Shown: piece by piece, positions 6,977-39,874 of the stretch
Position numbering within the stretch: position 1 is the first letter of the stretch
How the letters are laid out: each line of letters begins with the position of its first letter
Source of the DNA: Kappaphycus alvarezii
Taxonomy: Eukaryota > Rhodophyta > Florideophyceae > Gigartinales > Solieriaceae
NCBI GenBank assembly: GCA_002205965.3
Contig: NADL03000599.1
Coordinates: 1,116,001-1,180,000, forward strand
Length of the DNA stretch: 64,000 nucleotides
Direction: 5' to 3'
Translations under genes and position numbers: made by a program
Notes under the pieces: generated by a model
What the model saw: only the letters and a program-made list of their open reading frames with translations
Databases searched by the model: none
What the model was told of the DNA's origin: nothing

Positions 6977-7447
6977 TTGACCAACCCCACTCTCGACCTC
7001 TCCACACCCCATCACCTCGTCCGCCGCTCCCACTGCTGGCAACTATCACTCGACAATCTCAGAATCCACCTCGGCTTCGGTCGCCTCTCCACCCCCGGTC
7101 GTCACATCGAAAAAGCATTCCAAACCCTCGAAGACGCCGTCCAATGGGCCACCAACGCCATCCTGCAAAAGCTTCAATTCGGCTATAAATACCCCCAAAT
7201 CCCTATCCAACCAATCCTCACACCACCCCGTCAACCCTCCCCCTCCAACACAACCACTCCACTCCACCCAACCCCGTCGCACCACCCGCAAACGCTCCGC
7301 CCCCAACATCTACACCCCTGACAACTCGAAGCGTCCCAAGCCTCAACCCGCCGTCGTCCTTCAATTCCAACCTCCCCATGCACGTCCCATCTTCCTTACA
7401 GCCACCCCCGTTTCAACGGCCCGTTCGGCGTCGTCGATCCCGCCTCT
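6977..7447 (+). pseudogene. 5' part of a broken PARP gene: first WGR domain and basic linker
   Basis: From about 7015 to 7200 one frame encodes a WGR domain: CWQLSLDN, then FGRLSTPG for the signature, then AFQTLEDAVQWATNAILQKL and FGYKY, as in short bacterial-type WGR domains. No in-frame ATG precedes it; a stop lies at 6902-6904. Downstream this frame meets TGA at 7319. A second frame reads well over about 7262-7400 (TTRKRSAPNIYTP, a basic stretch that could be a nuclear localisation signal). The first frame reads well again from 7400 to 7447 (FNGPFGVVDPAS). That fits two compensating indels or an unrecognised intron. At 7447 an LTR element interrupts the codon run. The same frame resumes at 11639 with SASHGVIHSD, so this is one gene with the PARP body downstream. 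Confidence 0.72.
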
Positions 7448-7778
7448 GTGAAACAGGACAACACGAATGCTGTGGCGAAGGTGCCGTGTATCGCGTTTAC
7501 AAATGTTCGAATCTCCGTATTTGCGTCCGTTCGGTCGACTTGCGACCATTTATTCTCTATATTAGCAGAGAGATGGCGAGAGAGTATTCCTCGGGCATCG
7601 AACACCATCAATTGCGCCACGAAACGGGGTCTCCAGCAGTTCTGCCGTCAAGGAAGTCATCCTTACGTCTATATGGAGAGAAAGATTTGAGGAGCACGAA
7701 CAAACGTTTGGCCGTGCATTCGTTACATCTGTTGCTCTACATTCAGTAAACGGCTTGGCATTTCCAAATCTGTTTCAC
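7448..7778 (+). repeat. 5' LTR of the PARP-interrupting element
   Basis: 331 bp, bounded by GTGAAACAG...CTGTTTCAC and matching 11308-11638 with few substitutions. Its open frames are accidental and recur in the other copy. Confidence 0.88.
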
Positions 7779-7790
7779 TGGTAGCATCGC
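7779..7790 (+). promoter_or_regulatory. Primer-binding site (TGGTAGCATCGC)
   Basis: It abuts the 5' LTR with no gap. The 12-mer is complementary to a tRNA 3' end GCGATGCTACCA, and its first 8 bases match the usual eukaryotic initiator tRNA-Met primer site. The copia element in this window uses the same 12-mer. Confidence 0.8.
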
Positions 7791-7832
7791 TTAATTTTCT
7801 CCTGGATGCTCAGTCGTGAAGGGTCGTGGAGG

Positions 7833-8114
7833 CTACAGTTTTATTCCTAGCGACAGCCAGGAGGGCTTGGTCGCCCCGAGAGAAACCCATCCGCGTACTG
7901 CAGTATCAAATAGCGATTGAGCGAGTTTCTGCGTGAAGTAAGCGTCGGACAGACAACTTTGCAGACGACGCCGCAGGTTATCAACGGAATCAACGGATGA
8001 ATCCCCGCCTGACAAAAAGTCCATCGGTGATTTGGGGTTCCAACCGATGTCGAGTTCAAAAGGGCTGTAGCCTAGAGAGTCAATCTTGGCTGAGTTGTAT
8101 GAGAATTCGGCCAC
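7833..8114 (-). pseudogene. Integrase C-terminal fragment of a Ty3/gypsy-like element
   Basis: A 93-codon fragment reads AEFSYNSAKIDSLGYSPFELDIG, close to the AEFAYN...STGxSPFEL signature that follows the integrase core in Ty3/gypsy pol. It lacks the zinc finger, the DDE residues and any chromodomain. It is antisense to the LTR element that surrounds it, so it is either a nested scrap or captured sequence. Confidence 0.72.
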
Positions 8115-8429
8115 CGTCAGCCTGTAACTAGTTGAGCGATTTTGAGTGCTGTGACTGACTAGTGTGTTTTTGGATATCTTGGATGAAGAACAAGAACCTG
8201 AAAATATTGAGCGTATTTTGATGCGCTTTTGACTCTCTTGTGAATTCGCCGAGTGGACAAAGTCGAAGACGCCGTGATCTCGTTAAACTACTCGGTCGCT
8301 AAGCGTGCTGAGCTTTGGATGGTATGGGACATTTGGAATTTGGCAATACGAAGGTGAATTTTAAGGCGAGAATCATCGGAAATGGTGAGCCTATAGGAAA
8401 ACAGTTGTATATGTTTGTCGAGTGTACAA

Positions 8430-8850
8430 ACAGAGAATCCGACCTGCAAGTCGTTAAACTGGTTGAGCCGTGCGAGTGCTCGAAATGTCGACCAGCATGT
8501 CGGTAAACTGGAATGTTTCCTTGTTGGGTTTTGAAGGAACATTGAAAACCAAGACAATTATTATGGATGTCTGGCAATAGCCATTGTCGAGTGGTGAGCC
8601 TGCAGAAGAATATAACTCGGTTATTGTTTTTCAAGTAGATGAGAAACGACGACGACCGGCATGTCGTTAAACTGGAATACTGGGTGTTCGAGTGGATGAG
8701 CAGCAGTGACGACCGGTACGTCTTTAAAGTGGGTATTGGCGTGTCAAATGGACGGGCAGCGATGACGACCGCTATGTCGGAAAAAGTAGATGTATGGGCT
8801 TGTCTAGTAGACGAGAATGGTTTCAGCTATGTCGGCGAGAAGCTGAGTTA
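8430..8850 (+). repeat. Degenerate tandem array, about 55-bp unit
   Basis: The word GACCGGCATGTCGTTAAACTGG recurs in diverged form near 8441, 8490, 8655, 8713, 8767 and 8824. Spacings are about 49-58 bp, plus one gap of about three units. Confidence 0.6.
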
Positions 8851-8911
8851 TTCTTGGAAAGGTGCCGGTATTTATCAAATGATTGACCGGCTTGGATAAT
8901 CTTTTGTTTGT

Positions 8912-9742
8912 TCAGGAACGAAACAAATCTTTCACACTTATGCGGACGTCCGAGAAGGCAGCCGGTGCTATGAAGCCACTCGAGAATGTCTCCCTCGACT
9001 CGTAATAATTTCCTCGCGGCTTCCGAAGGACCTGCACGTTGCGTTCTTCAACGTTGACTATCCAATACTCGGGTATTCCTTCCAACGCGTAAGTTTCAAG
9101 TTTGGTGGTGCTGTCTCTCACAATGGTGCTTTTAGAAACTTCAGCAATCAACAAGATATCACTTGGTATTGCCTTGTGATTGTCGTAATCTTCACTGAAG
9201 CCTGACGCAATGAATACATCAGGCTCAGGTTCCGAATTCGTTCTGCTCAGACAAATTGGGTCAGCTTTGAAGACGGCTGCACGATTCTTGATTTCAAGCG
9301 CTTTGTACAGTTTCCTAAAGAGAACATTCGCGGTGTCCTTGTGTTCAACGGATTGGGAGGGCATTGCAACAAGGAATCCATTAAGCAGTTCCAAGCGACG
9401 GTCGTCCAAACGTCCCGTTTCAATCAATACGTGATAGTCTTCGACGGTTAGAGGCTCAAGATGAAAGTTTTCAGGAGTGTTCGCGCGTGAACGCCCCTTG
9501 GCAAGGAGGCAACCCTGCACACAAGACAAGGCCACCGGAGAGGGTGTCTTTTCCTTGCTTTGATGATTGATGGAAAACTGTGCTTCGCGAAATACATTAT
9601 GAAGAGTTGCAGCGGCTTTTTCGTTGTTTGGCCCGGGCCCCAGTCCAGAGGTGTAAGATGTACTGCCGCGCTTGAATCTGAAACGGCGAGGGGCCTCTAA
9701 TCCCCGAGTACATCGACGCAAAGACAGGGCTGAGCGAATCAT
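8912..9742 (-). CDS. Uma2-family (DUF820) PD-(D/E)XK nuclease-fold protein with N-terminal extension
   Basis: Intact single-exon ORF of 276 aa from the ATG at 9742. Residues 1-90 are an extension rich in Arg with almost no acidic residues at its start (MIRSALSLRRCTRGLEAPRR), like an organelle-targeting peptide. From about 95 the Uma2 fold is complete: LEPLTVEDYHVLIETGRLDD, RLELLNGFLVAMPSQSVEH with Glu118, EPEPDVFIA with Asp175, LLIAEVSKST with Glu201, and KLETYALEGIPEYWIVN with Lys214. This family is abundant in cyanobacteria and other bacteria, is classed by fold as a putative restriction-type endonuclease, and is rare in eukaryotes. The gene lies antisense inside a non-autonomous LTR element and has no stop or frameshift, unlike everything around it. 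Transfer from a bacterium is likely. Whether it is expressed, imported into an organelle or catalytic cannot be told from sequence. Confidence 0.85.
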   Translation of the reverse strand: MIRSALSLRRCTRGLEAPRRFRFKRGSTSYTSGLGPGPNNEKAAATLHNVFREAQFSINHQSKEKTPSPVALSCVQGCLLAKGRSRANTPENFHLEPLTVEDYHVLIETGRLDDRRLELLNGFLVAMPSQSVEHKDTANVLFRKLYKALEIKNRAAVFKADPICLSRTNSEPEPDVFIASGFSEDYDNHKAIPSDILLIAEVSKSTIVRDSTTKLETYALEGIPEYWIVNVEERNVQVLRKPRGNYYESRETFSSGFIAPAAFSDVRISVKDLFRS

Positions 9743-9912
9743 GGGGCTACGAAGTCAGACGATGCAGTGATGAAGGAGGAAATCGCGAAGAAGACGGAAA
9801 TAACAGGTTGGCGACTATGGAAGACAACAAATATCATATCTGTCATACGTCTCGTGTTGGCCACTCTTTGAGTCTAGAGTCCTGCAATTGGAAGTAAGAG
9901 GCACGTGTACAC

Positions 9913-10710
9913 GTGTCATACCGACTTGTGGTGGAACAGGGAGAAACTGACCGTTTGGAAGTTCAGACTTATTCGGCATGCGTGCTCTTAATTTCGAGAC
10001 ATGCCCATGACAAGATGGACGAGAGCGGCATCCCGCGGCGAGCCATTTGTGGCGATGCCGCGACGACGAATGTCGGAAGCACGCAGGGGGAGACATCTAG
10101 TCTGCCTGAGATCACGGCGCCAAGATACGTGGAAACTATGGCGGCCGATCCAATCCATGGAACGCAGCTTTGGATTTCGAAGACGGGAACAGGTCGCGAG
10201 CCCTCGCATGACTCCGACATTGAGATGCGAGTAGGCGACATTTCCGAAGATGCCGACGAGGAGACCGACGACGAGAACCTGACGCCTGTGTCTGGAATGA
10301 CGGAGTCTGACTTCGACAACAGTGACGCGAAGCGCCAAAGTGAGGGAGGCAATGCTGATTGGCACATAAGAAACTTCGTCGGAAGACCGCGATGACAAGG
10401 ACAGTGATGTCGACGACACCAACGAGGTCAAGGAAGCCAACAACTAACGAGCAAATTTGGGGATAAAGACGTAACGGTAGCTGAGTGCCAGGTAAATAAA
10501 CGACAGTGATGGCCACAACGTCGCCGGCCTCAACTACAAACAGATGAAACTGGCCGACGCAGAAGACGTCAAGCCCGCCGAGACGCCTGTGCACGGAGAG
10601 GCGCTGGACGATGAAGACACGACAGAGAGCGAGATATTTCGTCACTCTGACGGTGAACTGCGCGTGACCGGCACTCTGAAGCCGCAGAAACAAGTTTAGT
10701 TTCGGCCTTG
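9913..10710 (+). pseudogene. Acidic low-complexity coding remnant with frame changes
   Basis: Three successive open stretches in different frames encode Asp/Glu-rich sequence. The first (9913-10395) ends in EDADEETDDENLTPVSG. The second (about 10370-10446) reads DDKDSDVDDTNEVKEANN. The third (about 10497-10699) reads NDSDGHNVAGLNYKQMKLAD and ends KPQKQV-stop. Similar composition and a repeated GACAGTGATG word suggest one ancestral gene with indels, possibly a gag-like ORF of the surrounding element in sense orientation. No family is recognised. Confidence 0.35.
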
Positions 10711-11307
10711 TGGGAAGGCTTGTGGTCTTTCGCTGAAGGCGCAAAGAGAGGTGCTTCGAAGACTTGTTTGTACCCTATGAGGGTGTTTTTCTCAGTCTGT
10801 CGCCAGGGCACTGATGTGCTCCGATAGATTGAGTTTACGTAAGGTTCGGAGAAAGGGAGCTTTGTTGTCTGCCGAGGAAGGCTTTGTGACGCTGCAGGGC
10901 CTGTTCATGCGAATCCAGGCCTCTGTGAATCATGCGGAGACAAGTATGTTTCGGCCTTGTGAGAAGACTTGCAGAGATTTGCAAGGAGGCTCATGTTATC
11001 GCTAAATAAGTAAGGCTATGTAGTAATTGGTTTATGCGGACGTAGACATCGCGGAACTGCGAAGGATCGATGTTCTACCATTGTAGATTGTATGGAACAG
11101 TGAGGTTCCACAGTTTTCTCGCGGAGGATTCATGTCCGCTGCCACGGAACGAGCCATGATGTTATGAACAACAACAAAGACCAAGTTTCAAGGGTTCATT
11201 TTCAGCATCTAAAACGATTCATCTCTACAAAATTGCCCAACGTACCTCCTATCTCGTGTAAGCAAAAGGTATTCAACGAGGACGTTGAACATTGGGAGGA
11301 GGCAATG
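10711..11307 (+). other. 3' internal region of the LTR element, with polypurine tract
   Basis: No gene recognised. TTTCGGCCTTGTG(A/G)GAAG occurs twice (about 10699 and 10948). The purine-rich GGGAGGAGGCAATG at about 11294-11307 abuts the 3' LTR and should be the polypurine tract. Confidence 0.5.
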
Positions 11308-11638
11308 GTGAAACAGGACAACACGAATGCTGTGGCGAAAGTGCCGTGTATCGCGTTTACAAATGTTCGAATCTCCGTATTTGCGTCCCTTCGATCGACT
11401 TGCGACCATTTATTCTCTATATTAGCAGAGAGATGGCGAGAGAGTATTCCTCGGGCATCGAACGCCATCAATTGCGCCACGAAACGGGGTCTCCAGCAGT
11501 TCTGCCGTCAAGGAAGTCATCCTTACGTCTATATGGAGAGAAAGATTTGAGGAGCACGAACAAACGTCTGGCCGTGCATTCGTTACATCTGTTGCTCTAC
11601 ATTCAGTAAATGGTTTGGCATTTCCAAATCTGTTTCAC
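11308..11638 (+). repeat. 3' LTR of the PARP-interrupting element
   Basis: 331 bp, the partner of 7448-7778. The PARP reading frame appears to extend back into this repeat through a TTG, but the same codons occur in the left copy, so they are LTR and not PARP. Confidence 0.88.
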
Positions 11639-14007
11639 TCTGCCAGTCACGGCGTCATTCACTCGGACCATACCGTAACCCCTCCCATCGTGTATGATGC
11701 CATGCTCGTCTTGCTTGACATTCAGAAAAATCATGACAAGTACATCGTCTTGCAGTTGATCCACGAGGCGAATCACATCCAACCGTTTCTTGTCTTGCAA
11801 CGATGGGGACGTACGGGCACCGCCGGCGGTTCCATGACTCAACGCTTTGTTCAATTAACCGATGCCCATGCCGCTTTCGTCGGAAAGTTTAAGCAGAAGA
11901 CCGGCTTGGAGTGGCATCGCAGGCACGCGCGACCGGTTAGTGGCAAGTATCGATTCGTGGAACAGGACTTTCGCGCAAAGTATTTCGCGTCGGTGTCGGA
12001 TACGCCAGTGTGGCAGTACTGGGTTGATGATGGTGTTGATGGGAAGCCTACCGCTTGGTATCCGTATGATCATCACGGCAGTGTCCTGGTCGAGCAACTG
12101 TATCTTGAGTTTCAGAGCAACGCTTGGTTGAGCACTAGGGTTGTGGCCAGTGGTGCGTATTCTTACCTTGTCAATTTGGACGTCATGACTCAGACCAATG
12201 TTGTTCATCCTAATCATACCATTCGTCGTATCCGTCGAGTGCCTCAAGGGGAGTACGCGGACGGCGGACTGAGTACTAGTTGTCACTTGGGCGTGCCTGC
12301 TGTTGTCAACCCGCTTGCTGTGTGTGCTGTGAATGTGAAGAAGCCTAATGTACTGCCCGCGCCGTTGACGCCCCCGGTTAAAGTAGAACCGGTCCCTCCG
12401 GCTGTCGCCGCTGGCAGTGAAGATTATAAGGATGTTAAGAAGAGGAGTTCAAAGAGATTGGCAGCGGTGAAGGCAAAGGAAGAGGAGCTGGAGGACCATG
12501 TGGTTGAGGATGGAAAAACAACTATTCTCGTCGATGAGGCTTGTCCGCAGGCAGGGGAATACTATGTTGTGGATGACTTTGATGCCACGTTGAATCAATC
12601 CAATATTATGGATGGCAGTAACAATAATAAGTACTACAGGATCCAAATGCTATGTCATGAAAAGAATGGAACTTTTCACGTGTGGACGAGGTGGGGGAGG
12701 GTCGGCGAAACACGCGGGACGCAGACAAAGCAGATGGGTCCGTTTAGTGATGAAAATGCAGCATATCGGCCGTTTAACAAGAAATTCCGTGAAAAGTCCG
12801 GGAATGACTGGACCGCCCGCAAGACGTTTGTTCCCAAGAAAGGCAAGTACGAGTTGCTAGAAATAGACCATGGTGCAAAAAAAGAGCAGGAGCCGCTTGT
12901 GCTGACATTTCCGAGCTCAAATGCATATGTTGAGTATCTACCGTCCTCTCTTCCGAGGGAGAACCGTGAATTGATCGATTTGCTGTTTGAAAAGAATGTT
13001 TACGAGGACGCTCTAAGACAATTCGACATAGATATCCGCAAAATGCCCTTGGGTGCCTTGTCCGTGAACCAAATTGAAAAGGGCGTGGCAGTGTTGGAAG
13101 AAATTGAAGATCTACTGAAATCCGGATCTCCCCCGCGTCTAGAATTGGAGCGGTTGTCCTCCAAATTTTACACGATACTTCCCCACGACTTTGGAAGGCG
13201 ACGACCCCCAGTCATTGCGACGACGACGAGTTTGCTTCAGGCGTGTTACGATGAATGCAATGTCCTGTTGGACATGGAGAAGGCCACGTCGTTGATGTCA
13301 GAGGCCGCGAAGAAGACTGAAGAGGGGCAGAATAGTGAAGAAAAGAAGAAAGTCCCGCACCCGACAGAAGCGCAATATGCCTCTCTCAAAGCCGAGTTGC
13401 GCCTGGTCGATGAGGATAGTGAGGAGCACCAAGTGGTTCGTCAAGCGTTCCACACCACGAAAGGCCACTACAAAACTTCAAAACTACTCAATATTTGGCG
13501 GGTAGAAAGGGAGGGGGAAGCCGCGCGGTTCAAAGCGGTGAGATGCAATAACCATCGGCTGCTTTGGCACGGGAGTCATATCGGGGCTATATCAGCAATT
13601 CTGTCTACCGGACTTAGGATCATGCCTACAGCGGCGGACGAGTTGGGAGGGGTATTTACCTGGCGTCCGAAAACGGCAAAAGTCAAGAATATACTGTACC
13701 AGCATCTCGACAGAACATTGGTTGCATGTTCCTTGCACAGGCTGCCCTGGGGAAGATTTGTGAGATACAGCAAGACGATTCGACGCTAACGAAAGTGCCG
13801 AAAGGTTACCATTCCGTGCGTGCCTGCGGGCAGCAAAACCCTTCGCAGTTTTCCGACACAGAACTGGACGGAAAAACTGTTCAGGTGCCAGTGGGAGAAC
13901 CCCAGAACAACCCGGCGGCTGCAAACAGTGAGTTTTTTCAAGATGAGTTTCTCATATACAACGAGGCTCAAGCAAGGATCCGATATGTAATTACTGTACG
14001 CAAGTAG
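11639..14007 (+). pseudogene. PARP body: WGR, WWE, WGR, helical and catalytic ART domains; frameshifted
   Basis: Poly(ADP-ribose) polymerases attach ADP-ribose from NAD+ to nuclear proteins, and WGR domains sense DNA breaks. Numbered from the TTG at 11615, a WGR domain spans about 25-125 (QRWGRTG at 62-68). A WWE domain spans about 133-209 (VWQYW, AWYPY, LDVMTQTN, TIRRIRRV). A linker with the basic run KKRSSKR follows, then a third WGR at about 312-425 (TRWGRVG). The helical regulatory domain spans about 440-600 and the ART domain begins at LLWHGS (His652). After GLRIMPTAADELGG the frame breaks at 13646-13651. The adjacent frame continues with GIYLASENGKS (Tyr codon 13657-13659) and runs to TAG at 14005, with Glu at 13945-13947 in DEFLIY. 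The full H-Y-E triad is thus encoded, but in two frames one base apart. With the LTR insertion upstream the gene is probably dead, unless the base is an assembly error and expression starts here. Confidence 0.86.
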
Positions 14008-15622: not shown

Positions 15623-15627
15623 GTACA
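15623..15627. repeat. Target-site duplication GTACA (left)
   Basis: GTACA lies immediately left of the copia element and again at 21076-21080 immediately right of it. Confidence 0.85.
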
Positions 15628-15870
15628 TAAAGATGAGAAAGGGTCGGAGCCTTCCTTCCCCAGGACTCCGGTGGCGAGGACGCCACTCCCTTTATTTTAT
15701 ATGCTCCCCGAGCTCACCCGACGGCGGGTCGGTAGCCCTCAGGGAATGCATCCCATGTCATGCTGACACTAGGGCTAATGTAATTACTGGTCCCTCCAGC
15801 CGGACCCGGCTTTGCCCCTCTGTGGGCACATTTCAGTACAGCTAGCGGCGCACACAAGTGGTCTCTATCA
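15628..15870 (-). repeat. 3' LTR of the copia element
   Basis: 243 bp. On the plus strand it begins TAAAGATGAG and ends TCTATCA. It contains a spurious 70-codon open frame on the plus strand (15633-15845), repeated identically in the other LTR. Confidence 0.93.
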
Positions 15871-16432
15871 CCCCTCCTCGCCGCTAGCCCAACAAAGCAC
15901 CTCTCAATAAGTGCAAGAAGCAATACTCACAGCAACCTCATCGTTGACACACCCGCCTATCTGAGATGATGAAAACTCAAAAATAAAGTTGATCACAGTG
16001 CACACACTGGAATTGAACTCACTTAAATCTATTTCAGAAACACTCCCAAACCAACTAGGCCACAAGTTCTTCAAATATTTGCCATTCAAATTGAATATCC
16101 CAAGATAGGCCACGTGTAACCATAATCATGAATTCCAATTAAATCTGGAGGGTTTCAGAGGGTCTGGTATAAAAGGGTCCCGCAAAATTTGCACTAACGT
16201 GAACTGTTCGCAGTGAACCCTGAAGTGACTGACCGCTGTAGCGAATTGAGGGCCAAACCACACCCGGAAACGGGTGTGGGGAGGAAGAGGTGTTGTCCAC
16301 GAAAGTGTAATTCCCCGTCACTGAAGGTACCGCAGCCAAAGAGGCAAAAAGCCTAGCCATAAAAGTTAGACGTTACCTTTTGCTCTTCTTTTGCAGCAAA
16401 TCCAAGTTCCAAAGGCACTTTCGTTGAGTGTA
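15871..16432 (-). other. Copia 3' untranslated region and polypurine tract
   Basis: The 562 bp between the gag-pol stop and the 3' LTR have no gene. CCCCTCCTC at 15871-15879 is the polypurine tract on the minus strand. A short palindrome, ACCCGGAAACGGGT, lies near 16263-16276. Confidence 0.6.
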
Positions 16433-19400
16433 TCACTTCGAACTTCTAACACAGCAAATTTTGCGATGCTTCTCTAGCGTGCGACGGTCAACAGACTTAG
16501 TCAAGATGTCTGCAGGCTGATCGGCACTGCTAATGTGAACTATCTTTGCAGCTCCAGACTTGATGTGATCGCGCACGTGATGGTACTTGACGTCGATGTG
16601 TTTGCTCTTAGCAGACACTTGGTCTTTCTCAGCGATGGAAACTGCTGCCGTGTTGTCAGAATAAACTGGTGTGGTAAGATTTGGCATCTCGTCAAAATAT
16701 GGCCGGGCGTAGCTCATTTCTAATGCCAGTCTTCGCACCCACGTTAACTCCTTTACGCATGATGAAAGTGCCACATACTCGGCTTCAGCAGAAGATAGAG
16801 CAACGATTGTTTGACGTTGGCTCTTCCAAGCTACTGACGCATCATTAATCGTGATGATGAATCCCGTCGTGGACTTTCGGCATTCTTGGTCTCCAGCCCA
16901 GTCCGAATCCACGAAGGCACGAATGTTGAAGCCATTTGCAGCTGTAGCGAGATTCTTGGTTCTTCTTGGAAACAAAATGCCCAATTGTCTTGTACCAGAT
17001 ATATAGCGTAGCAATCTCTTGACTAAAGAAGCGTGTCGGACAGTTGGACTGTGAACTTGACGTGCTAATGCGTTGACTGCATATGAGATGTCAGGTCTTG
17101 TACATACTGCCAGGTGTAGCAACTCTCCAATTGTTGCACGGTAGATAGAATGATCTCTTTTGGAAAGCATAGTGTCGTTTTCATGTGCAGAAGTAATATC
17201 CGCTTCTTCTGGCAGGGGGGTCCAAGCACCGTTTGCCTCGTAGAGGCCGTGCCTTTCGAGAAGCTCATCGATGTACCTCTTCTGGCAAACCTTGGTTCCT
17301 TCGATTCCTTGATGTATCTCCCAGCCCAAAAACGACTTCAGCTCCCCGAAAAGCTTTACATCGAATTCCTTGCATAGCCTTTCCTTAAAATGCTCGAGCA
17401 ACGGCTTTGAATTGCTGACGAAGGCCATATCGTCAACTATGACAACAAGAATAATGAACTCCTTTCCACATAGCTTGTAGAATACCCGAACGTCAATAAG
17501 AGATTGCTTAAAGCCCCATTTGAGAATGGTTACTGCAAAGAGTGATCCCCAAATTCTTCCAGCTTGACGTAGGCCATACATGGACTTGAGTAGACGGCAA
17601 ACAAAACCAGGCCTTTCTTGTTTTCCAGAGGAGTCTGTGGGCTGCTCCATGTAGACGATAGCGTCGATCTTTCCATACAGATACGCGCTACTTACATCCC
17701 CTCCTTCAACGATGAGGCCTAAAGCAGCGGAAATAGCAAAAAGCATTCGGATGGCTTCTTTGGAAGCGACAGGGGAATAGAGAGAATCAGGATCAAAGTC
17801 AATACCAGGCATTTGCATATCTCCTCTAGCCACACAACGCGCGCGATGAAGATGAGTTTTTCCAGATGTGTCACAGGGTTTGAGCCGAAATACCCATGTG
17901 TACGGTATGACGTGCATCGAGGAATCGCGAAGGACATATTCCCAAGTCCCTCTCGTTCGGAGAGCTTTATATTCTCTGTCGATAGCTTCGCACCAGAGGG
18001 GGTCCAGGATGGCAAGGGCGAAAGAAGTTGGAAGACGAGAGTCCGGATTTCTCTTTCTTGAGGCCGTTGCCCAAGGAAGACATTTCCTTAGTGGTATGCG
18101 ATAAATGGAAAACGCTCTTGCAAGGAGATCCTCTAGCAGTCCATCGTTGAATCCTTCTTCGTGCTGCAATGTATTCTGCCTTGAGATTCCATCGAGGAGT
18201 GAAGATACTCCCGGCAACTGGTCTTCTGAGCAAAAGCGAAAATCCTGCGCTCTGGTCACAATGATGCTCTTCCTCTCTGGAATGTAAATGCGATACAGCG
18301 TCTGCTCGCTTTCCAAACCCACAAAGTTTCCATGTGCAGCTCTTGCGGAGAGCTTTCTGTTCTGCCGGGTTGGAGATTGATATAAGAAGGCAAAACCAGG
18401 CTGTCCAAAAATCGGCAAGTTCTTGAAGTCAATGCGAGTTCTAGAGTCCCATAGAAGTATGGGAATATTTCCATTAATTCGCTCGGAAGGAAGACGGTTT
18501 CGCAGCCAATTCCCGTGACTCATTGCTTCAGCCCAAAGTTGGTCACCTAACTTTGCATCGAATAGTAGGACGCGTGCACGTGCGCCTAACTCCTTCATGA
18601 ATCTCTCGGCGACACCGTTGCTTTGGGGAGCGTTAGGTGGGCTTGCTTCAAGACGGATTCCGTTGCTCAGGGCGAAGTTCTGAACCGTGCCAGAAAGGTT
18701 CTCTCCCGCTCCGTCTAAACGAATGTTGATTACCTTGAAGCCAGTGACGTTTTCAGATCTTTCCTTGTAGTACGTCAGAGCAGGAAATAAATCAGACTTC
18801 TTCTTGATGAAGTACACATCAGTCTTGGCGGTGCGATCGTCGACGAAACCAACGGAGTAATGACTACTTCCCAAGGATGGCTGGGGCATTTTTCCACTGA
18901 TGTCAACATGAACGATCTCAAGAGGGTACAATGTCCTTCGCATGCTTGGCAAAATCGGTCGACGTTGAACTTTTGCAATTGCACAGGGAATACAAAGAAT
19001 ATCTTCCAACAACCGTTTCGGGAACTTTGGGACATCTTCGAATGTGTTCGACAGTCTCATATACCTGCCAGGATGAGGATGACCAGTACGACTGTGCCAT
19101 TCCAAAGCCAATTCCCGCTGGGTTTTTGTGCGGACTGAGTTTAAGCATTGGAAGCACACTTGATCCACGGATGTCGTCTCCATGTGAAAGACTTGAGCAG
19201 ATTGCGGATTTTGGACTTGATTTTCTTCGTCAGGTGGTATTGGAAGACGGTAAAGACCATCATCATCAATCTCAACAATTTTGGTGGGAGCGGTAGATTT
19301 GCGCAATGAAATGACACAGGAGCTGACATCTTCGCGCGCCGGCGGATCCATCGTGAACAACACATTGAGAAACTTCGTAAGTACCCCAACAGACAGGATG

Positions 19401-20740
19401 TTGCATTGAAAATGTGGAGCATGGTATGCTTCTGCAAAGAATCCACCTGCTAACGGGATGAAGACCTCTCCTTTTCCAACAAGAACGGAAACTTCAGATG
19501 CGGCCTGAACATCTTGCTTTTCAATGCGCTCATAGGATCTGAATGATTTTCTTGAATGGAAGAAGTGATGTGAACCACCAGAATCAATCAATGCTTCAGA
19601 AGATTTTCCATCCCCACATTTTGCTACAGTGCTCTTGTACTTGACCTTGGCCATAAATCCATACGGTTTACTCGAGTTTGATCCTTGGTTATTTCCATTG
19701 TAATCTTGTCCACGATATTGATGCGGAGGGTGCTGATCTGGGACCAGAACAGGTTGGGCGGAAGGTCCAGGTGCCCGATTTGAGCCATTGTAACTGCCTG
19801 AAAATTGTTGATTGTTATCCCATGAATGGTTTGCAAAATTCGGAGTTGGAGGAAAAGCTTGATTACCATGTTGGGGAAAGTAAAATTTTCCGCCACGACC
19901 GCGACTACCGCGAAAGTATCCTCGCCCCAATCCACGACCTCTTCCGCGACCACGTCCCCGAGATGTACCTAGCTTGTCTGCGCGAAAATAACATTCCTTG
20001 GAACGGTGTCCTGGCTTCCCACAAACCCAACAAACGTCTGAACTCGAGGATCCATTGCTCTTGTTGATTCTTGCTTCTAAAAATCTTTCTCCTCTTCCTT
20101 TGAGCGCTTTGCCAGCAGCAGAAGCTTTTGGAACGCTGATACCATCAGTATCAGAGTGCTTCGACTTCTTTCTTGAAATCTCAGTGGCGATTGCCGTAAG
20201 AATTTCTTCATAAGACAGCTTGCTTGAGATCATAGCGATAGGTGAAAAGTGCTCGGGTAAGGTACGAATAAGTTTAGATGCCTTCTCTTCATTCGGCACA
20301 GCCTTGTCAAACGAAGCAAGCTTTCCAAGGATTTCATGAAACTTGTTGAGATGTTCTTCCCAACTGGATTCTTCCTTGTAATTCAATGCTTCCAGATCTT
20401 GAAGAAGATTGATCACCGTTTGCTCGTTTGAAGCGGTGTAGAGACGGCTTAGTGCATTCCATAGATCTTGCGCTGTTCGATCATCATCATCGATGATGGT
20501 ACTTGTCTGAGCCATGGGTCCATTTGCGAGTGTCAGAACTATTGCAGACTTCGCTCTGATGTTGGCCTTATTCCATCGAGACATCTGCGTGGCCGTTGCA
20601 TCGTTCGGTCTTGGCTTTAAACCGAGAAGTTCGATATCGTCTCGTTGAATGTACGCCTTTAGTCGGCGGCGCCAAGGGATGAAATCTTTGGCTCCAGTTA
20701 AGCGAGGCAGTTTGCCAAGGGACTCACCATCACTCGCCAT
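16433..20740 (-). CDS. Copia gag-pol polyprotein, intact
   Basis: 1435 aa in one frame from the ATG at 20740. Order: gag of the UBN2 type (1-210), CCHC knuckle CWVCGKPGHRSKEC (about 237-250), an RG-rich stretch (about 260-285), aspartic protease with LIDSGGSHHFF (about 384), and the integrase zinc site (WHSRTGHPH ... CIPCAIAK, about 548-587). The integrase core follows with HVDISGK, LDGAGE and NGVAERFMKEL (about 612, 676 and 711). The reverse transcriptase has SMYGLRQAGR and VVIVDDMAFVS (about 1050-1100). The RNase H region has VDSDWAGD, SSAEAEYVAL and SDNTAAVSIAE (about 1300-1410). All catalytic residues I can check are present. The order protease-integrase-RT-RNase H is diagnostic of Ty1/copia. 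There is no separate gag ORF or frameshift signal. Confidence 0.97.
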   Translation of the reverse strand: MASDGESLGKLPRLTGAKDFIPWRRRLKAYIQRDDIELLGLKPRPNDATATQMSRWNKANIRAKSAIVLTLANGPMAQTSTIIDDDDRTAQDLWNALSRLYTASNEQTVINLLQDLEALNYKEESSWEEHLNKFHEILGKLASFDKAVPNEEKASKLIRTLPEHFSPIAMISSKLSYEEILTAIATEISRKKSKHSDTDGISVPKASAAGKALKGRGERFLEARINKSNGSSSSDVCWVCGKPGHRSKECYFRADKLGTSRGRGRGRGRGLGRGYFRGSRGRGGKFYFPQHGNQAFPPTPNFANHSWDNNQQFSGSYNGSNRAPGPSAQPVLVPDQHPPHQYRGQDYNGNNQGSNSSKPYGFMAKVKYKSTVAKCGDGKSSEALIDSGGSHHFFHSRKSFRSYERIEKQDVQAASEVSVLVGKGEVFIPLAGGFFAEAYHAPHFQCNILSVGVLTKFLNVLFTMDPPAREDVSSCVISLRKSTAPTKIVEIDDDGLYRLPIPPDEENQVQNPQSAQVFHMETTSVDQVCFQCLNSVRTKTQRELALEWHSRTGHPHPGRYMRLSNTFEDVPKFPKRLLEDILCIPCAIAKVQRRPILPSMRRTLYPLEIVHVDISGKMPQPSLGSSHYSVGFVDDRTAKTDVYFIKKKSDLFPALTYYKERSENVTGFKVINIRLDGAGENLSGTVQNFALSNGIRLEASPPNAPQSNGVAERFMKELGARARVLLFDAKLGDQLWAEAMSHGNWLRNRLPSERINGNIPILLWDSRTRIDFKNLPIFGQPGFAFLYQSPTRQNRKLSARAAHGNFVGLESEQTLYRIYIPERKSIIVTRAQDFRFCSEDQLPGVSSLLDGISRQNTLQHEEGFNDGLLEDLLARAFSIYRIPLRKCLPWATASRKRNPDSRLPTSFALAILDPLWCEAIDREYKALRTRGTWEYVLRDSSMHVIPYTWVFRLKPCDTSGKTHLHRARCVARGDMQMPGIDFDPDSLYSPVASKEAIRMLFAISAALGLIVEGGDVSSAYLYGKIDAIVYMEQPTDSSGKQERPGFVCRLLKSMYGLRQAGRIWGSLFAVTILKWGFKQSLIDVRVFYKLCGKEFIILVVIVDDMAFVSNSKPLLEHFKERLCKEFDVKLFGELKSFLGWEIHQGIEGTKVCQKRYIDELLERHGLYEANGAWTPLPEEADITSAHENDTMLSKRDHSIYRATIGELLHLAVCTRPDISYAVNALARQVHSPTVRHASLVKRLLRYISGTRQLGILFPRRTKNLATAANGFNIRAFVDSDWAGDQECRKSTTGFIITINDASVAWKSQRQTIVALSSAEAEYVALSSCVKELTWVRRLALEMSYARPYFDEMPNLTTPVYSDNTAAVSIAEKDQVSAKSKHIDVKYHHVRDHIKSGAAKIVHISSADQPADILTKSVDRRTLEKHRKICCVRSSK

Positions 20741-20820
20741 TTGGATGATTCAAGGGGTAGTGGCAATAATGGAAACTAGTTTTGGAAGGGTCTGATTGTT
20801 TTGGAAAAGTTAAACTCGTT

Positions 20821-20832
20821 GCGATGCTACCA
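20821..20832 (-). promoter_or_regulatory. Primer-binding site of the copia element
   Basis: On the minus strand TGGTAGCATCGC directly follows the 5' LTR. It is the same 12-mer as at 7779-7790 and consistent with priming by an initiator-type tRNA-Met. Confidence 0.82.
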
Positions 20833-21075
20833 TAAAGATGAGAAAGGGTCGGAGCCTTCCTTCCCCAGGACTCCGGTGGCGAGGACGCCACTCCCTTTAT
20901 TTTATATGCTCCCCGAGCTCACCCGACGGCGGGTCGGTAGCCCTCAGGGAATGCATCCCATGTCATGCTGACACTAGGGCTAATGTAATTACTGGTCCCT
21001 CCAGCCGGACCCGGCTTTGCCCCTCTGTGGGCACATTTCAGTACAGCTAGCGGCGCACACAAGTGGTCTCTATCA
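20833..21075 (-). repeat. 5' LTR of the copia element
   Basis: 243 bp, with no difference seen from 15628-15870. It is followed by the duplicated GTACA at 21076-21080. Confidence 0.93.
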
Positions 21076-24000: not shown

Positions 24001-25050
24001 ACCAAAATGCAGTCCCATGTTATGACTTGCAATACGGGCAATATACTGCGGAGTTAGTGACAATAGTACAGCTCCTTGTAACAACTGAGAACATAGTACA
24101 CCCTCCTTTGGATCTGTTTATTTTTCACACGGAATTCATACGATTTAGTATCGGTTTATTTAGTAATTAACGTTCAATATGTGTTAGACTCGGAAATTTC
24201 ATAAAAGCATGCCTCCTTTAGCTCTTTTTGAGCTCTATTTACTGATTAAATTTCTTTAAAGTCGTCTTGGTTAGGTATATCATGTACCGTAAAATTAGAA
24301 AGCAGCAGCCATCCGTTTTAACCCCGGTTGGCGACTTTTTGAAGCATCTTACTCTATAAAAATCAAGCCCTTTAAAAGGATAAATAAAGCCTCATATTTG
24401 AGTGGAAAAATATTTTCCATATTTCCATTAAAATTTTTTTGTTATGAAGATCATTTTTGCTCCGTAAAATGTCAAAATTTTCATTTATCTTAATATGGTC
24501 ACTTATTTTGAATTTTTTTGCAAAGCGGCGCCTCTGGGTCATTTGGAGCAATCATTAGGTGATAAATTTGAATTTAATGACCATTGAACTCTTTCTTTTG
24601 TTCCATCAGTTCTGAAAAGTGCAATGACCTGACTGAATTTCGGGCCGTAATTGCAAAAACGAGTTTATTCTACGCGATGCATTCAAGGCCTGCATCAGTG
24701 TCAACATAACTGAAAGCATGATAATAACATCTCGTTTTCATGTTAAAGGATGTTCAGCTCTCAAAATTTTAATATTAATGGAGAAAGGAGTGTTGGCTTT
24801 TTATAGGCAAGGAATGGCTGCTTTTAACTTTTGAAATTTTCGGTTGGAAAAAGGAGAAGCAGTATAGTAATTTTAGCCAAGACGAATTATAACACGGGCT
24901 CGCATTGGTAGGTTCCTTATTCAGATTCCCATCATAATAGAAAGCCCAAATGCCAAAATAACGTAGTCCATATTTAGTTTACACCTTTTACGTTCAATTA
25001 TTCGGACTCACTGAAGTGAAAATCATACACACACACCATTAGTGACAGCG
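21081..25050. other. Gene-poor region, AT-rich from about 22.8 kb
   Basis: No gene supported. A 91-codon plus-strand frame at 21489-21764 and the overlapping frames around it have no recognisable motif. From about 22800 to 25000 the sequence becomes AT-rich with frequent stops in all frames, as in old transposon debris. Confidence 0.5.
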
Positions 25051-25679
25051 TGTTCGCTGTCCATCTTTCTCTTTAAGCACTCTGCAATGCAGTAGCACAG
25101 TCCGCCGATGGCGAGGAGAAGTTTAGTGGGGGTAAAGCGGGGGTAATTACTTGGACGGCCGGACAGTATAATTGTCCTCCGGGTTGTAATTCCGGATTTG
25201 GATCCGCAGAATGCTGGAACCTTGAGAATAATCGATTCAGAAAGACCGAAGACATCAGGGGTGCAGGATTGGACAACAAGAGATGTAGTAGTGGATCAAC
25301 AGTGCTGAGCATTTCCTTTGGAGATAAAGTTGTTGTCACCAACGACAACCTTGAAGTTCCTATTTGCATATAGACGCCGGAGTCTGCGGCTCCAGTTGTG
25401 AGTGAATGGCACAAACGAACAATGAAAGGGGTAGTATAATATAGGATCGAGAGGGGGAAATAGAAGGGAAACTCGGGAGGATAAACGTGTCTATAGCCAA
25501 ATTTGCACTTGGCAAGGTTGCTGCAAAGGCGAAAGTTGGGAGTCAAGTTCAGAGCCAACACCGGGGTTGCTGACCATTATGAGATCTCAGTGGCCAGTTA
25601 TGTATAAATAATAGTTGGCTAGGTTAGTGTTATCTAAAACGGCAAGGTAAGTAAAGTCACTGTCAGCCAAGTAATAGAG
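25051..25679 (+). repeat. Dispersed repeat, copy 1 (solo-LTR-like)
   Basis: About 629 bp beginning TGTTCGCTGT, homologous along its length to 50818-51449 in the same orientation. Conserved blocks include GTAGCACAGTCCGCCGAT, AGATTGGACAACAAGAGAT and TATAGACGCCGGAGTCTG. A TATAAATA lies near the right end in both. Size and TATA box fit an LTR, but no internal region, primer site or target duplication was found. The 162-codon minus-strand frame here is not conserved in the other copy and is probably accidental. Confidence 0.75.
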
Positions 25680-33411: not shown

Positions 33412-35621
33412 TAACGTATTAGTTTCTGTTACAGTAGTACAACCAGACAAGTGGTCGTTCTTATTTGCTAATCACTAGAAGCAAAAGATATTGATTTCTC
33501 CGAGTAATTATGAGTTCTCTACGAGATTCTCTTGAAATCGACAGAGGGTGAGTGCTGTTTTCAAAAGACAAAGGACGGCTAGGGAAGTGAGGGAGGTCAA
33601 GTAGCAATGGGAGGGAAGATTGATATCAATTTTGACTGCTCTCAATCCACGAGGGAACCATTTAATGAAAAGTACGCCATTACTCTGCCACACTGTACAA
33701 CTCGTAAAGATTTACCACCACATTACTCTGCGTCAGCCACGCCAATGTGCGGATGACAATAGAATACGCGAGGTGATCTCCAAATAAAGATTGAAAAGAG
33801 AGCAGATTTTGTCAGTGCCGAAACACAGATCAGTCAAAAAGCTGTCACTCATGACGTATCGGAGGCCGACTACTCTCCGTTACAGATAAAAAGGGAAAGA
33901 AATTTCGGATATTTGATTTACTGTACCGTGGTACTGATACCATAAAGTTACTCTCATGGTCCGGTTGAAGGGATAAATACATTCTAAATGCTTTGTCACT
34001 CTCACAAGTAGGCCACATTGCGAGCTAATCGATGTTCAGATTACAAATTGGAGCGATTCGCTGAAACATGTATACCAACTTGAGACAAGAAAGGACCCAA
34101 GGCTCTCGTGGCATGAACATCGGCATGTTTGCAAAGATGGTTCTTCCATGAATGGACCATTGTGTAACCATGGCCATGCAATTCCTTTACCCACACCAAA
34201 TTAGTCGGGTTTAAATTGAAATGTATTATGCACGGCCACGGAGGGTGTTGGCAACTCGCAAGTAGACAAGAGTTTTGAAAAACCATTATGCGGTATGAGC
34301 GGTTGATATTGTGCGGAATGAAAGGTTTCACTTGTATTTCTTGTATGAAACAAGAAGGCGACTTTATGCTGCAAATTGCAGGAGACGGAAAACCGCAAGG
34401 TTCTTGTTGTAAAACGCCCCATTAAATCATTACGGAATGTTGAGGGTCGAGGTAATACATGTGGGCAGATTCAACTAGTTAGTTAGTTGTCGGCATCGGG
34501 AGACGGAAGCAATGGTGGAGACTTTACTTGCCAAAGATTTGTATCAAATACAATTGTGGAGATTTTTTGTGTGTTGAGGTGATAACAATGGGCATCGAGG
34601 AGACAGTGACACACTATCCTGTATTCGTCATATGTAAAGGGGCTAGTGGTCACGCTGTGGACTGTCCCTCTTCCTTTTCCATAATTTTGTCTTTACGAAA
34701 GAGGACATTTTTTCATGGTCGATATAGCAGTCATACAGTTAGGTCTTGTGTGTTGTATTTGCTCATGTATGTATGAGCATGTATGGAAAGTACGGTATTC
34801 CTCTAATCTCCAAGCGCTTGACGCTTGGCCGGTAGTTTGTCTCTCCACCGGATAGTACCTTCCCTGGTAGTGTTGTTAGTTTAATGTAGTAAGCGTAACT
34901 TTGGGGAGAAGAGAGGGGAACTTTGTGAACTGTACAAATTGAGATTGTATTTTACGGAGCGATGAATTGCGTGATAGAATATTGCCCCTACCTAAGTGGG
35001 CATGTGTGAGCGACAGTGCAGTACAGTGTTGTATTTACCTTCAAAAACAGCACAAATCACATCATTGAACTAATCCCTACAAATCGTCTAAAGTACGTGC
35101 AGTACAGTACAGCACAGTACATTTCTTTGTCTGTACTGCGACACTTTACTGTACAGCCATGATTACAAATACAGAGGACTCCCAACCTTTCCATTACTCG
35201 CAGTAAACCAAACCAATTTTCCCCCCCTATTTCCCCCCCTGTACAGCCATAGCTGTGACCCGCTTGTATTAACTGTATTGCTAAACCGCCCCATATCATA
35301 CTGCTCTGCACTGTATTTTCGTTGGCCTCGTGAGGTACTGTAATGGTATCGACTTGTATCCAAGTTGTAATGTAATCAATTCATCCGCTGGTGAGATTGG
35401 AGAATGAATGCAGTATGCACTGTCGACAAAAAGTTAAAATGCGAACATTTGCAACCATAATGCACTGTACTGAAACTAACAAAGAAACGGGGCCCTTTAT
35501 TTCAAGATAAAGTCGGAACGAACAGCACTGGATAAAAGTTCGCTAGACCTTAAAAAGGAGTAAAAAAAAAGCCAGCCAACTGAACGGACTCTTTGAATAC
35601 TGTCCTGTATTTGCCTGCTTT
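33412..35621. other. Intergenic, no gene recognised
   Basis: Short frames at 34331-34041 and 34422-34201 (minus) show no known motif. CAGTA/TACTG blocks lie at about 35015-35035 and 35098-35155. The left end of the DIRS-type element begins at 35622. Confidence 0.45.
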
Positions 35622-35944
35622 GGTACTTTAATTGGAAAATTATGGGTGAATATGAGAAGGGGGGTTGAACGTGGCCTTGATCTGCCACTCCGGATAAGTC
35701 ACGCGGTCACGGTTGCATCAATTGACTGTAAGCACCTGTTATGATGGCCACGTAGGCAGCTTACCGTTGTACACCCTACACTCGCTGCCGCGGCCGCATA
35801 TGCTTCCTGGTTTCTACATAGCAGCCGTACCACTTGCGCAAGGGGACTTGGACCACGATCAAGACCGGTTCAACAGGGCTATATAACCGCCAACTTGAAA
35901 ACCTCTAGCGCAACTTCTGGTTCCTCAAGTCGTCGCTTGTTCTC
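35622..35944 (+). repeat. Split direct repeat A1 of the DIRS-type element
   Basis: 323 bp from GGTACTTTAATTGG to GTCGTCGCTTGTTCTC, repeated as A2 at 39893-40215. TATATAA at about 35879 may be the promoter of the element's transcript. Confidence 0.92.
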
Positions 35945-36004
35945 ATCCCTCGAACCAGCTCCAGACGAATCTGTCTAGGTCGACTATCACACTTGCACAT
36001 CAAC

Positions 36005-36844
36005 ATGTCCCATGCCACCTCCTCTGAATCTTCGCAGTCCGACGCTTCTCGCCTCCATACCCTCGAGAACAAGGTCACCGGCATCGAAACCCAGCTCTCG
36101 CAGATTGTCAACTTGCTCCAAGCTTCCGCTGGACCGTCGAACCCTCCTGCCGCAGAGCCTGCCGCCGCCGCCGCTTCAGATCCACCGGCATCTGATCCTA
36201 CCGTTAAGCCCTCAACCGCCGCTGAGGCTTACAAAACGGGCGTTCTTCAGTTCTCACTGCCCACGCCCTCTGCAACCGCAGTTGCCGACACACTCGCTAC
36301 CCGCCAGGAATACGCTGAGGTCGGCAAACTCAACAAGTACCAGCGCCCTAGCTCCGTCGCTCCCTATCCCGCCAAGAGGTTCATTCCGGAACCAGAAGGT
36401 CTTTTCGGTCGCATCAAGGCCGCTGACGTTCGTGACGGGTGGGAAGCCGAAGTACTCTGGAACGTTGGGCACAACTGTGAGACCGCCATCGCCTGCGCTC
36501 ACCGGGTCACCGAGGCCCTCCAGAACAAGGACATATCAGCCGCTACTGAGTTCTTCTCTGTTCTACACCACTACTTGGAGGCCACTTACAGCCGCGTTCT
36601 GGAACGGACCGATTTCTTCACTGACTCTGTCGAGTCCGGAAAGTCTGAAGCTATGCTCCTCCAGCGCTACCTTCGTGAAGACGACTACCCGTATTCGTCG
36701 GAGCTCTATCGCTCAACTAAGGCCAAGTTCGCTGAATTGCGCTCCCAAGCATACGCGAAGGAGTTCAACAAACAGGCCGCTCAAGGCTCTCGACCTCGCA
36801 AGAATCAGTCCGGGAAAGGTTCCAAGGACTCTAAGTCCAACTAA
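36005..36844 (+). CDS. Gag-like ORF1 of the DIRS-type element
   Basis: 279 aa from the ATG at 36005; the frame is open slightly upstream only through a TTG. The N-terminus is Ser-rich with a short coiled-coil stretch (RLHTLENKVTGIETQLSQIVNLL), followed by a Pro/Ala-rich linker and a helical region. The tail is basic (RKNQSGKGSKDSKSN) and suited to RNA binding. No CCHC knuckle is seen. The gag assignment rests on position and composition. It ends 35 bp before the RT ORF. Confidence 0.8.
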   Translation: MSHATSSESSQSDASRLHTLENKVTGIETQLSQIVNLLQASAGPSNPPAAEPAAAAASDPPASDPTVKPSTAAEAYKTGVLQFSLPTPSATAVADTLATRQEYAEVGKLNKYQRPSSVAPYPAKRFIPEPEGLFGRIKAADVRDGWEAEVLWNVGHNCETAIACAHRVTEALQNKDISAATEFFSVLHHYLEATYSRVLERTDFFTDSVESGKSEAMLLQRYLREDDYPYSSELYRSTKAKFAELRSQAYAKEFNKQAAQGSRPRKNQSGKGSKDSKSN

Positions 36845-36879
36845 AGCCGTCGCCTCCGCGACTCTTTATTTCTGTCCCT

Positions 36880-38835: not shown

Positions 38836-38905
38836 CTCTCCAGCAATCTGTGCTTACAGCAGCCGGATTAGGGAATACTTCGGGGGGAATACTATTGCAC
38901 GGATC

Positions 38906-39841
38906 ATGCCAAAGGCGCGTACCCCAAACACCTGGCGCTCGAATGAGATACTATGGAAGAAATGGGTTACTTTCTGCTCGCAGGATGGAATCGACCCACT
39001 GGAGGGCTCCGAAGGTCCTTTACTTCGCTACCTTGGTTGGCTCTTTGATGAATCTCGCGTAAGTGCTGGATCAGTTCGTAACTATCTCTCCGCTGTTACA
39101 ACTGCCCACACCAGGATTGGTCGCCCCCTCACTCTCACTCCTTTGATACAGCTCGCAGTGACTGCATATCAGCAAGCCGATTTGGAACGCAAAATCATAA
39201 CCGACCCGGAAGCCTCTAAGGAACGTCGCGCTTTACCAAGCTCGGTGGCCCGACAAATCTTCCAAGCCGCCATGACTTCTCCAACGACAGATTTGGAATT
39301 TCTACGAAATTCTTGCGCAATACTCGTGAGCTACGTGTTCTTCGAACGGGGTGAAGCTGGGATATCATTGCTACTGGACAACATTGCTGTCAACGCTCAA
39401 TCTATCGATATCGCAATAGCGCTCCGCAAGAACAGGCAACGGGTTTCGCACACGCTCTCCTACCGTCGAAATTCAAACTGTTCGGAAAGTCTGATTGATT
39501 TGGTGCTTCGTTATGATGTTCTACGCCGTGGGAATACTTCTAAATCGCGCTATTATTGGGCTTTACCGGGTACTCGCTTGTCTACTAGCGCACGCACCCT
39601 ATCTATCTGGATTTCTTCTACGCTCTCTCGTCTGAAAATAACCCCACCACCGCAGGTTACTTGGTCCTCACACTCTCTACGTATGGGCGCTGCATCTGAA
39701 AGCGCAGCAATCGGGGTCCAAGAATACCGTATCCTCATCTGGGGTGATTGGTCAGCCGGCAGAACGTTTCGAGAATCTTATTTGGATGGAAGAGTGCAAC
39801 CGTGTGAAGATTCGTATTTCTTCTTCGGCCACTTGTTGTAA
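38906..39841 (+). CDS. Tyrosine recombinase of the DIRS-type element
   Basis: 311 aa from the ATG at 38906. The N-terminal core-binding half (TWRSNEILWKKWVTFC, LLRYLGWLFDES, VRNYLSAVTTAH) precedes the catalytic half. The first Arg lies in VSYVFFERGEAGISLL. The HxxR pair is SHSLRMGAASESAAIG, the Trp is in WGDWSAG, and the nucleophile Tyr is in FRESYLDG close to the end. This arrangement is typical of the YR that integrates circular cDNA of DIRS, Ngaro and PAT elements. The ORF appears complete. Confidence 0.92.
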   Translation: MPKARTPNTWRSNEILWKKWVTFCSQDGIDPLEGSEGPLLRYLGWLFDESRVSAGSVRNYLSAVTTAHTRIGRPLTLTPLIQLAVTAYQQADLERKIITDPEASKERRALPSSVARQIFQAAMTSPTTDLEFLRNSCAILVSYVFFERGEAGISLLLDNIAVNAQSIDIAIALRKNRQRVSHTLSYRRNSNCSESLIDLVLRYDVLRRGNTSKSRYYWALPGTRLSTSARTLSIWISSTLSRLKITPPPQVTWSSHSLRMGAASESAAIGVQEYRILIWGDWSAGRTFRESYLDGRVQPCEDSYFFFGHLL

Positions 39842-39874
39842 CCGCAGTCTCGAAGCAAATCCTTTGAATTTGGT

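Follow-up and report, generated by a model that had tools for sequence, protein, structure and literature searches.

Antisense additional open reading frames (ORFs), known as aORF-3R, are described for the plant Gypsy elements Grande, RIRE2, Retand and PvRetro13 and for brtn of the Botrytis element Boty in the sections of a 2020 review on which we draw; there the antisense gene of Grande is said to be transcribed from its own promoter, and the aORF-3R proteins to have no clear similarities to other database proteins (PMC7264820). In the excerpts used here of a 2025 study of Retand, 72 of 104 antisense ORFs have identifiable domains and their role is left unexplained (PMC11963269). Acquired enzyme genes are described, in the parts of the reports cited here, for the bdelloid long terminal repeat (LTR) retrotransposons Vesta and Juno, whose third ORF encodes a DEDDy exonuclease or a GDSL protein probably taken from a pool common to retroelements (PMC5408684), and for orchid Ty3/Gypsy elements that gained a conserved m6A demethylase domain (PMC9289625). 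Here we analyse a 64,000-nucleotide stretch of the red alga Kappaphycus alvarezii (contig NADL03000599.1, positions 1,116,001 to 1,180,000; hereafter the window), in which an LTR retrotransposon carries an antisense gene for a protein of the Uma2/DUF820 family. We consider it likely that this element represents a family of non-autonomous LTR retrotransposons (Ty3/Gypsy retro-satellites) in a red algal nuclear genome, whose sole conserved recognisable gene encodes an antisense Uma2-type nuclease-fold protein.

Like the aORF-3R elements, the Uma2 element has kept an antisense protein gene across copies, and a DNA-related role has been thought possible for that class, ORF2 of PvRetro13 having an SMC domain; as far as the cited sections go, however, those elements carry gag-pol, whereas the Uma2 element lacks it and its protein is a clear member of the Uma2 nuclease-fold family with bacterial relatives (PMC7264820). 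With Retand it shares antisense ORFs and repeat arrays before the 3' LTR, and some Retand clusters are likewise non-autonomous, but the domains named in the excerpts (TRP28, Smc, Mis12, topoisomerase 2, DNA polymerase III subunits and mitotic checkpoint proteins) are those of angiosperm elements (PMC11963269). The term "nuclease" does not occur in the text of that study, in contrast to the nuclease fold of Uma2 (PMC11963269). A conserved antisense ORF, as in Retand and Grande, was present at 12 of 12 LTR-linked loci; an ORF between pol and the 3' LTR and a TRP28-type protein were not found, the Pfam scan of the ORFs of the window element giving neither pol nor TRP28. Vesta and Juno resemble the Uma2 element in their acquired enzyme gene but differ in that theirs is ORF3 of gag-pol elements, has another nuclease fold and, in the excerpt used, shows no significant departure from neutrality (PMC5408684); "antisense" appears once in that text, for small RNAs (PMC5408684). 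The orchid elements have a different enzyme (PMC9289625, in part). Literature searches found no relevant work linking Uma2 with retrotransposons or red algae, and none on retroelements, judged by titles, for Uma2 together with endonuclease and transposon. A reading of the DNA that preceded this analysis (the sequence-only reading) had proposed a new kind of transposon cargo. Antisense ORFs, some with known domains, were already on record in the sections cited (PMC7264820, PMC11963269), and what is new is a bacterial-type nuclease-fold protein as antisense cargo, not antisense cargo as such. Uma2 offers a known fold, defined catalytic residues, bacterial relatives, a record of selection and exact insertions, one of them with its empty site, and so brings the function of an antisense retrotransposon protein within reach of plain biochemical assay with catalytic-site controls. 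It is also a case in which an LTR element has distributed a gene of a nuclease family across the genome of a eukaryote.

The window element is bounded by a real pair of LTRs, as previously proposed, although the repeats measure 329 bp and not 331 bp; their ends are of the TG...CA type and the two copies differ by 7 mismatches. One base past the left LTR begins a primer binding site (PBS), TGGTAGCATCGC, which we take to be the complement of the 3' end of an initiator-Met-like tRNA. The features of the element are as follows.

7444-7448, no strand: left target-site duplication CTCTG, present in one copy only at the empty site on contig C665
7449-7777, plus strand: 5' LTR, 329 bp, TGAAACAG...CTGTTTCA
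7779-7790, plus strand: PBS, a motif also found after Gypsy LTRs
7836-8114, minus strand: presumed Ty3/Gypsy integrase-like scrap, antisense to the element, with homologues in Gypsy ORFs of the genome and also in locus L013
8912-9742, minus strand: gene for a 276-aa protein of the Uma2/DUF820 family, antisense to the element (ORF, Pfam, alignment, structure model)
8942-9442, minus strand: Uma2 domain proper, residues 101-267 (Pfam; model pLDDT)
9743-11272, plus strand: 3' interior, holding roughly 100-bp imperfect repeats between 10684 and 10971; homologous sequence occurs in L009, L011, L012, L013, L014 and L025
11273-11307, plus strand: conserved 35-nt stretch with GGGAGGAGG, a polypurine-tract candidate (94% identity in L009, 97% in L011)
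11309-11637, plus strand: 3' LTR, 329 bp
11638-11642, no strand: right target-site duplication CTCTG (sequence; C665 empty site)
11638-13789, plus strand: downstream part of a WWE/WGR/PARP gene split by the element (Pfam; element-free homologue on C665)

The upstream part of the split WWE/WGR/PARP gene lies to the left of 7448. Elsewhere in the assembly, contig C665 carries another PARP locus, 97% identical, that lacks the element; its empty site, which matches the window flanks at 95% on the left and 97% on the right, has a single CTCTG. Because the C665 site is empty and holds one copy of the duplicated sequence, the window element is a precise insertion, most simply one that occurred after the two PARP loci diverged.

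The Uma2 ORF is unbroken over its 276 codons, as first noted, and matches PF05685 in Pfam-A (E value 5.3e-28; score 98.1 bits, cut-off 27), its residues 101-267 aligning with profile positions 2-168 of 172; a chance ORF was rejected for this frame. In an alignment of 45 rows, E201, D210 and K214 never vary, conservation at E118 and D175 is at least 90%, and the window copy has all five; the residues originally listed (Glu118, Asp175, Glu201 and Lys214) are thus borne out, with D210 to be added. The window protein shows the restriction-endonuclease-like PD-(D/E)XK fold of the Uma2 family, and block means of pLDDT in its structure model are 89-98 from residue 101 onward. The N terminus is basic with few acidic residues in the three copies compared. 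An organelle-targeting function is not claimed for it, as the region is unlike the domain in its evolution and its start is unsure.

Searches of the genome for the LTR and for Uma2, with independence judged by comparing flanks, established that the gene travels with the element. There are 21 Uma2 matches, 12 with this LTR family and 9 without; at the latter nine, an LTR of this family and an adjoining PBS were looked for and neither was found. At all 12 LTR-linked loci the LTR is located 3' of the Uma2 frame and points the other way, so that the ORF is antisense to the element, and 11 have the PBS with at most two mismatches, the twelfth (L027) having a form one base shorter. Four pairs of loci (L010/L012, L014/L025, L015/L026 and L018/L027) are homologous over about 10 kb in whole-locus comparison, and the 12 loci therefore represent eight independent insertions; the element has carried the gene to at least eight places. 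Two LTRs with 5-bp duplications are present in three of these insertions: the window copy (CTCTG), L009 (TTGAG) and L013 (GTGCC), the last having lost about half of its right LTR. The window copy and its sister L013 are 98% alike with different flanks, and the DNA around the integrase-like scrap (7780-8911) was found only in these two. The compact member L009 spans 2.8 kb, and its longest ORF is Uma2 (283 codons from stop to stop; the next has 157); two apparent solo LTRs, L030 and L033, carry the duplications CAAAC and GGGGA (1.5 kb seen on each side). The homologous pairs do attest segmental or haplotype copies, and one could suppose that a single Uma2-bearing segment with a neighbouring LTR was copied around the genome and that Uma2 was never retrotransposed. 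Yet the exact 5-bp duplications at three Uma2-bearing loci and the exact empty site refute this for the window, L009 and L013, and the flanks of the eight independent loci share no long stretches, which makes segmental duplication hardly credible as the general explanation. Several genes are present twice in the assembly, which may hold two homologous sets; it has 17 phycobilisome-linker matches, several of them on megabase contigs, as would be expected of a red alga.

Apart from Uma2, no Pfam family was above cut-off in the other ORFs of the element (3 + 10 ORFs scanned, some being longer or shorter forms of the same ORF). The longest sense-strand ORF has 165 codons, and neither gag nor pol of an autonomous Ty3/Gypsy element was found among the scanned sense ORFs. 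The scrap at 7836-8114 likewise matched no Pfam family, and we presume it to be integrase-like from its motif; 150 scored matches to it (from 613 candidates) occur across the genome, many within long ORFs of up to 1260 aa. The sequence-only reading had described the other coding sequences as decayed. This is correct in part: no domain beyond Uma2 is over the cut-off in the ORFs scanned, but the element is non-autonomous rather than merely decayed, its sole recognisable remnant being the antisense integrase-like scrap.

The affiliation of the element was examined through its ends. A joint LTR-end/PBS motif, GTTTCAYTGGTAGCATCGC, occurs at 419 sites in the 336-Mb genome with at most one mismatch, and its reversed control at none. 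For at least 33 of the first 100 sites listed, a Gypsy integrase-like match follows on the same strand at a distance of 4.38-4.76 kb downstream, and none of these 100 has such a match on the opposite strand or upstream; this count used 147 of the 150 integrase-like places, three from the two element copies being excluded. Among five sampled sites (L047-L051, of which L048 and L049 are near-copies at 96%), three (L048, L049 and L051) run into gag/protease/reverse transcriptase-like ORFs on the sense strand, and RVT_1 was confirmed by Pfam in both sites scanned, L048 and L051. LTR ends and PBS are thus common to the Uma2 element and autonomous Gypsy elements, as befits a satellite. Since the PBS follows the left LTR and the Gypsy integrase and reverse transcriptase sites lie on the same strand, the plus strand is the sense strand of the element and Uma2 lies antisense to it, as had been claimed. 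A minus-strand element with the integrase-like scrap as its own pol was rejected because of the PBS position and the same-strand integrase-like sequences.

Two further sampled sites share this LTR/PBS class. L050 (G000:C49:245400-248900) has an LTR and leader 85-87% like those of the Gypsy loci L048 and L049 with a different interior, and is apparently another satellite or a chimera. L047 (G000:C312:1400-5000) forms a tandem array of about 3.1 kb with an NTPase-like protein on the sense strand in two overlapping frames, one matching the retrotransposon hot spot protein family PF07999 over the cut-off (6.6e-6) and the other nSTAND3 below it; it represents a second gene-bearing satellite family. 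A ULP1 protease considered as element cargo (L038 and L040) gave no independent evidence, the two loci being homologous over most of the protease-bearing stretch.

Selection on Uma2 was assessed by Nei-Gojobori dN/dS on blastp-aligned open segments of 27 pairs from different insertions (L010 and L012, from one insertion, were both included; L013, L025, L026 and L027 were left out). A ratio near 1 had been named beforehand as the outcome that would speak against a selected gene; all 27 pairs lie below 1 (0.17-0.82, with 22 at 0.17-0.51). Nine pairs were bootstrapped with 500 replicates, and all nine 95% intervals were below 1: L009/L014 gave 0.29, L009/L012 0.33, L009/L015 0.32, the window copy against L009, L010, L011 and L015 0.34-0.41, L012/L014 0.50 and L015/L018 0.63 (with 2 of its 500 replicates reaching or exceeding 1). 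Uma2 is under purifying selection between elements and seems to have stayed functional from one jump to the next. The possibility that it is functionless filler in an element that needs only its LTRs to move draws on the ability of non-autonomous elements to move without genes of their own and on the frames broken in 7 of the 12 copies, but it is already disfavoured by the ratios of 0.29-0.41 between divergent independent copies, for which none of 500 replicates reached 1 in any of seven pairs. The comparison of strands points the same way: in the six copies checked, each of the three sense frames of the domain is interrupted by stops, while the Uma2 frame of these copies is open in five, with one stop in L010. 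We therefore regard a mere passenger as quite improbable. It is more improbable yet that the antisense transcript and not the protein matters, double-stranded RNA tuning the element as discussed in part of the 2020 review, which also reports antisense transcription for Grande and Retand (PMC7264820, excerpts); a role at the RNA level would neither spare replacement over synonymous sites nor keep E118, E201, D210 and K214.

Between homologous copies of one insertion, dN/dS was 0.45, 0.61, 0.83 and 1.28, with an interval including 1 in three of the four pairs, and the window copy against its damaged sister L013, a separate insertion, gave 0.63 (0.42-0.96). The domain is unbroken in five of 12 copies: those of the window, L009, L012, L014 (with a 5-residue deletion) and L015 (with D175 changed). 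These observations fit selection acting mainly through mobile copies, with decay after landing, although the decay half of this statement rests on few sites. Uma2 might instead have been captured once as cargo with a product of use to the alga, for instance in countering foreign DNA, and the element would then simply spread a useful gene. Purifying selection is silent on whom a gene serves, the genome keeps Uma2 genes without LTRs in long single ORFs, and L015/L026, copies of one insertion, have an interval just below 1. However, each of the four homologous pairs has at least one broken copy, and the near-neutral values of L018/L027 (1.28) and L010/L012 (0.83) are those expected with selection mainly through mobile copies; a host-serving gene is in our judgement unlikely.

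Several observations weigh against a family of mobile satellites that maintains Uma2 by selection. The frames that are stopped or shifted are in the majority, and a 3' LTR was seen at only four of the 12 loci (the window, L009, L013 and L011, partial in the last two), none being present within the 10 kb read for the remaining four insertions (eight loci), which is a weak point. Five pairs, all within L010, L012, L015 and L018, have dN/dS of 0.62-0.82, and the interval of L015/L026 (0.61; 0.39-0.99) excludes 1, which leaves the idea of decay after landing only partly supported. In the domain, synonymous sites of pairs with the window copy are near saturation (pS 0.7-0.8), where pN/pS of 0.5-0.6 is the safer figure. 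The N-terminal part of about 95 residues is poorly predicted in the model, is unsure in its true start and evolves unlike the domain, with lower pS and dN/dS of 0.59-0.77. Finally, Gag, reverse transcriptase and integrase would have to be supplied in trans by Gypsy elements with the same LTR end and PBS, as the shared ends and PBS suggest.

The origin of Uma2 was approached through the best 80 of 417 bacterial relatives, selected for their similarity to the proteins of the elements, and cyanobacterial sequences take the first 12 places in the list, at 31-40% identity. In a quick maximum-likelihood tree of 93 rows, in which four rows stand for the nine non-LTR Uma2 matches and two viral-contig rows were added to the bacterial ones, the seven element rows form one clade (SH-aLRT 96), and the four non-LTR rows (C679, C715, C733 and C558) form a separate long-branched group joined by a long viral-contig row. 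The element protein differs from cyanobacterial Uma2/DUF820 proteins such as Ava_3926 (PDB 3ot2) in being borne by a retroelement and in its added N-terminal region; the element clade does not join the cyanobacterial rows. The gene is bacterial by family and, within the 80 relatives, by best matches, as the sequence-only reading had it, but its donor is not fixed by the tree; a cyanobacterial or plastid origin is suggested by the ranking of matches and not by the tree. Of the two routes then proposed, bacterial cargo or a swallowed nuclear gene, the phylogeny speaks against a recently swallowed local gene, and the idea that the element copied one of this genome's own nuclear Uma2 genes in recent times was rejected because the tree sets the two apart, with the reservation that the tree is quick and holds four rows for nine matches.

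The LTR of L011 is 83% identical to that of L009 and 72% to that of the window, whereas its Uma2 is nearer to that of the window (SH-aLRT 81; pS 0.58 against 0.74). Window and L010-type copies have a pS of 0.76-0.82 in the domain and of 0.32-0.38 in the region just upstream. A natural reading is that Uma2 may have been exchanged between element lineages, perhaps by template switching.

Uma2 genes also occur at L016, L017, L024 and L028 (G000:C679, about 1.22-1.25 Mb) in a tandem array of about 7.1 kb without an LTR. The copy read has 463 codons and a repeated KEKGRAD tail, and the array is a separate nuclear Uma2 lineage.

For the retro-satellite we propose the following cycle. The genomic RNA would start in the 5' LTR and be primed by initiator tRNA, whose end is expected to be GCGATGCTACCA. 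Transcription of Uma2 would begin at an antisense promoter located on the gene's side of the element. An antisense position spares the genomic RNA from a gene's terminator, and in this element would keep that of Uma2 off the sense RNA. As the likeliest role, though at somewhat less than even odds, we suggest that the predicted nuclease-fold protein is a DNA-acting accessory favouring the element and not the host, a choice in line with the DNA-related roles proposed for the antisense proteins of Retand and Grande. A more specific version, which we consider rather doubtful, is that the retro-satellite uses the putative bacterial-type nuclease, expressed antisense from an integrated copy, to cut competitor or helper cDNA or DNA, or to open target sites, so that its own copies win. 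Were this so, the protein would serve as a nuclease weapon where retroelements come into conflict, with a logic akin to that of homing or superinfection-exclusion nucleases, and the NTPase family typified by L047 and the Uma2 family would make up a set of gene-bearing satellites.

Elsewhere in the window, 15626-21075 on the minus strand has 245-bp repeats that are 100% identical, a single ORF of 1435 codons, and next to the right repeat a PBS of the same motif as in the Uma2 element; we take it to be a copia-type element, and it looks very recent. At 35619-40215, 326-bp direct repeats (99.4%) accompany a reverse transcriptase-like ORF and a tyrosine-recombinase-like ORF (38906-39841), presumably those of a DIRS-like element. 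Two ORFs occupy 48094-49782, the second with the motif LQPLDVSVFGPL, by which we assume it to resemble a pogo/Tc1-like DDE transposase. Two stretches of 0.66 kb (25018-25679 and 50784-51449), 25.8 kb apart, are 78% identical.
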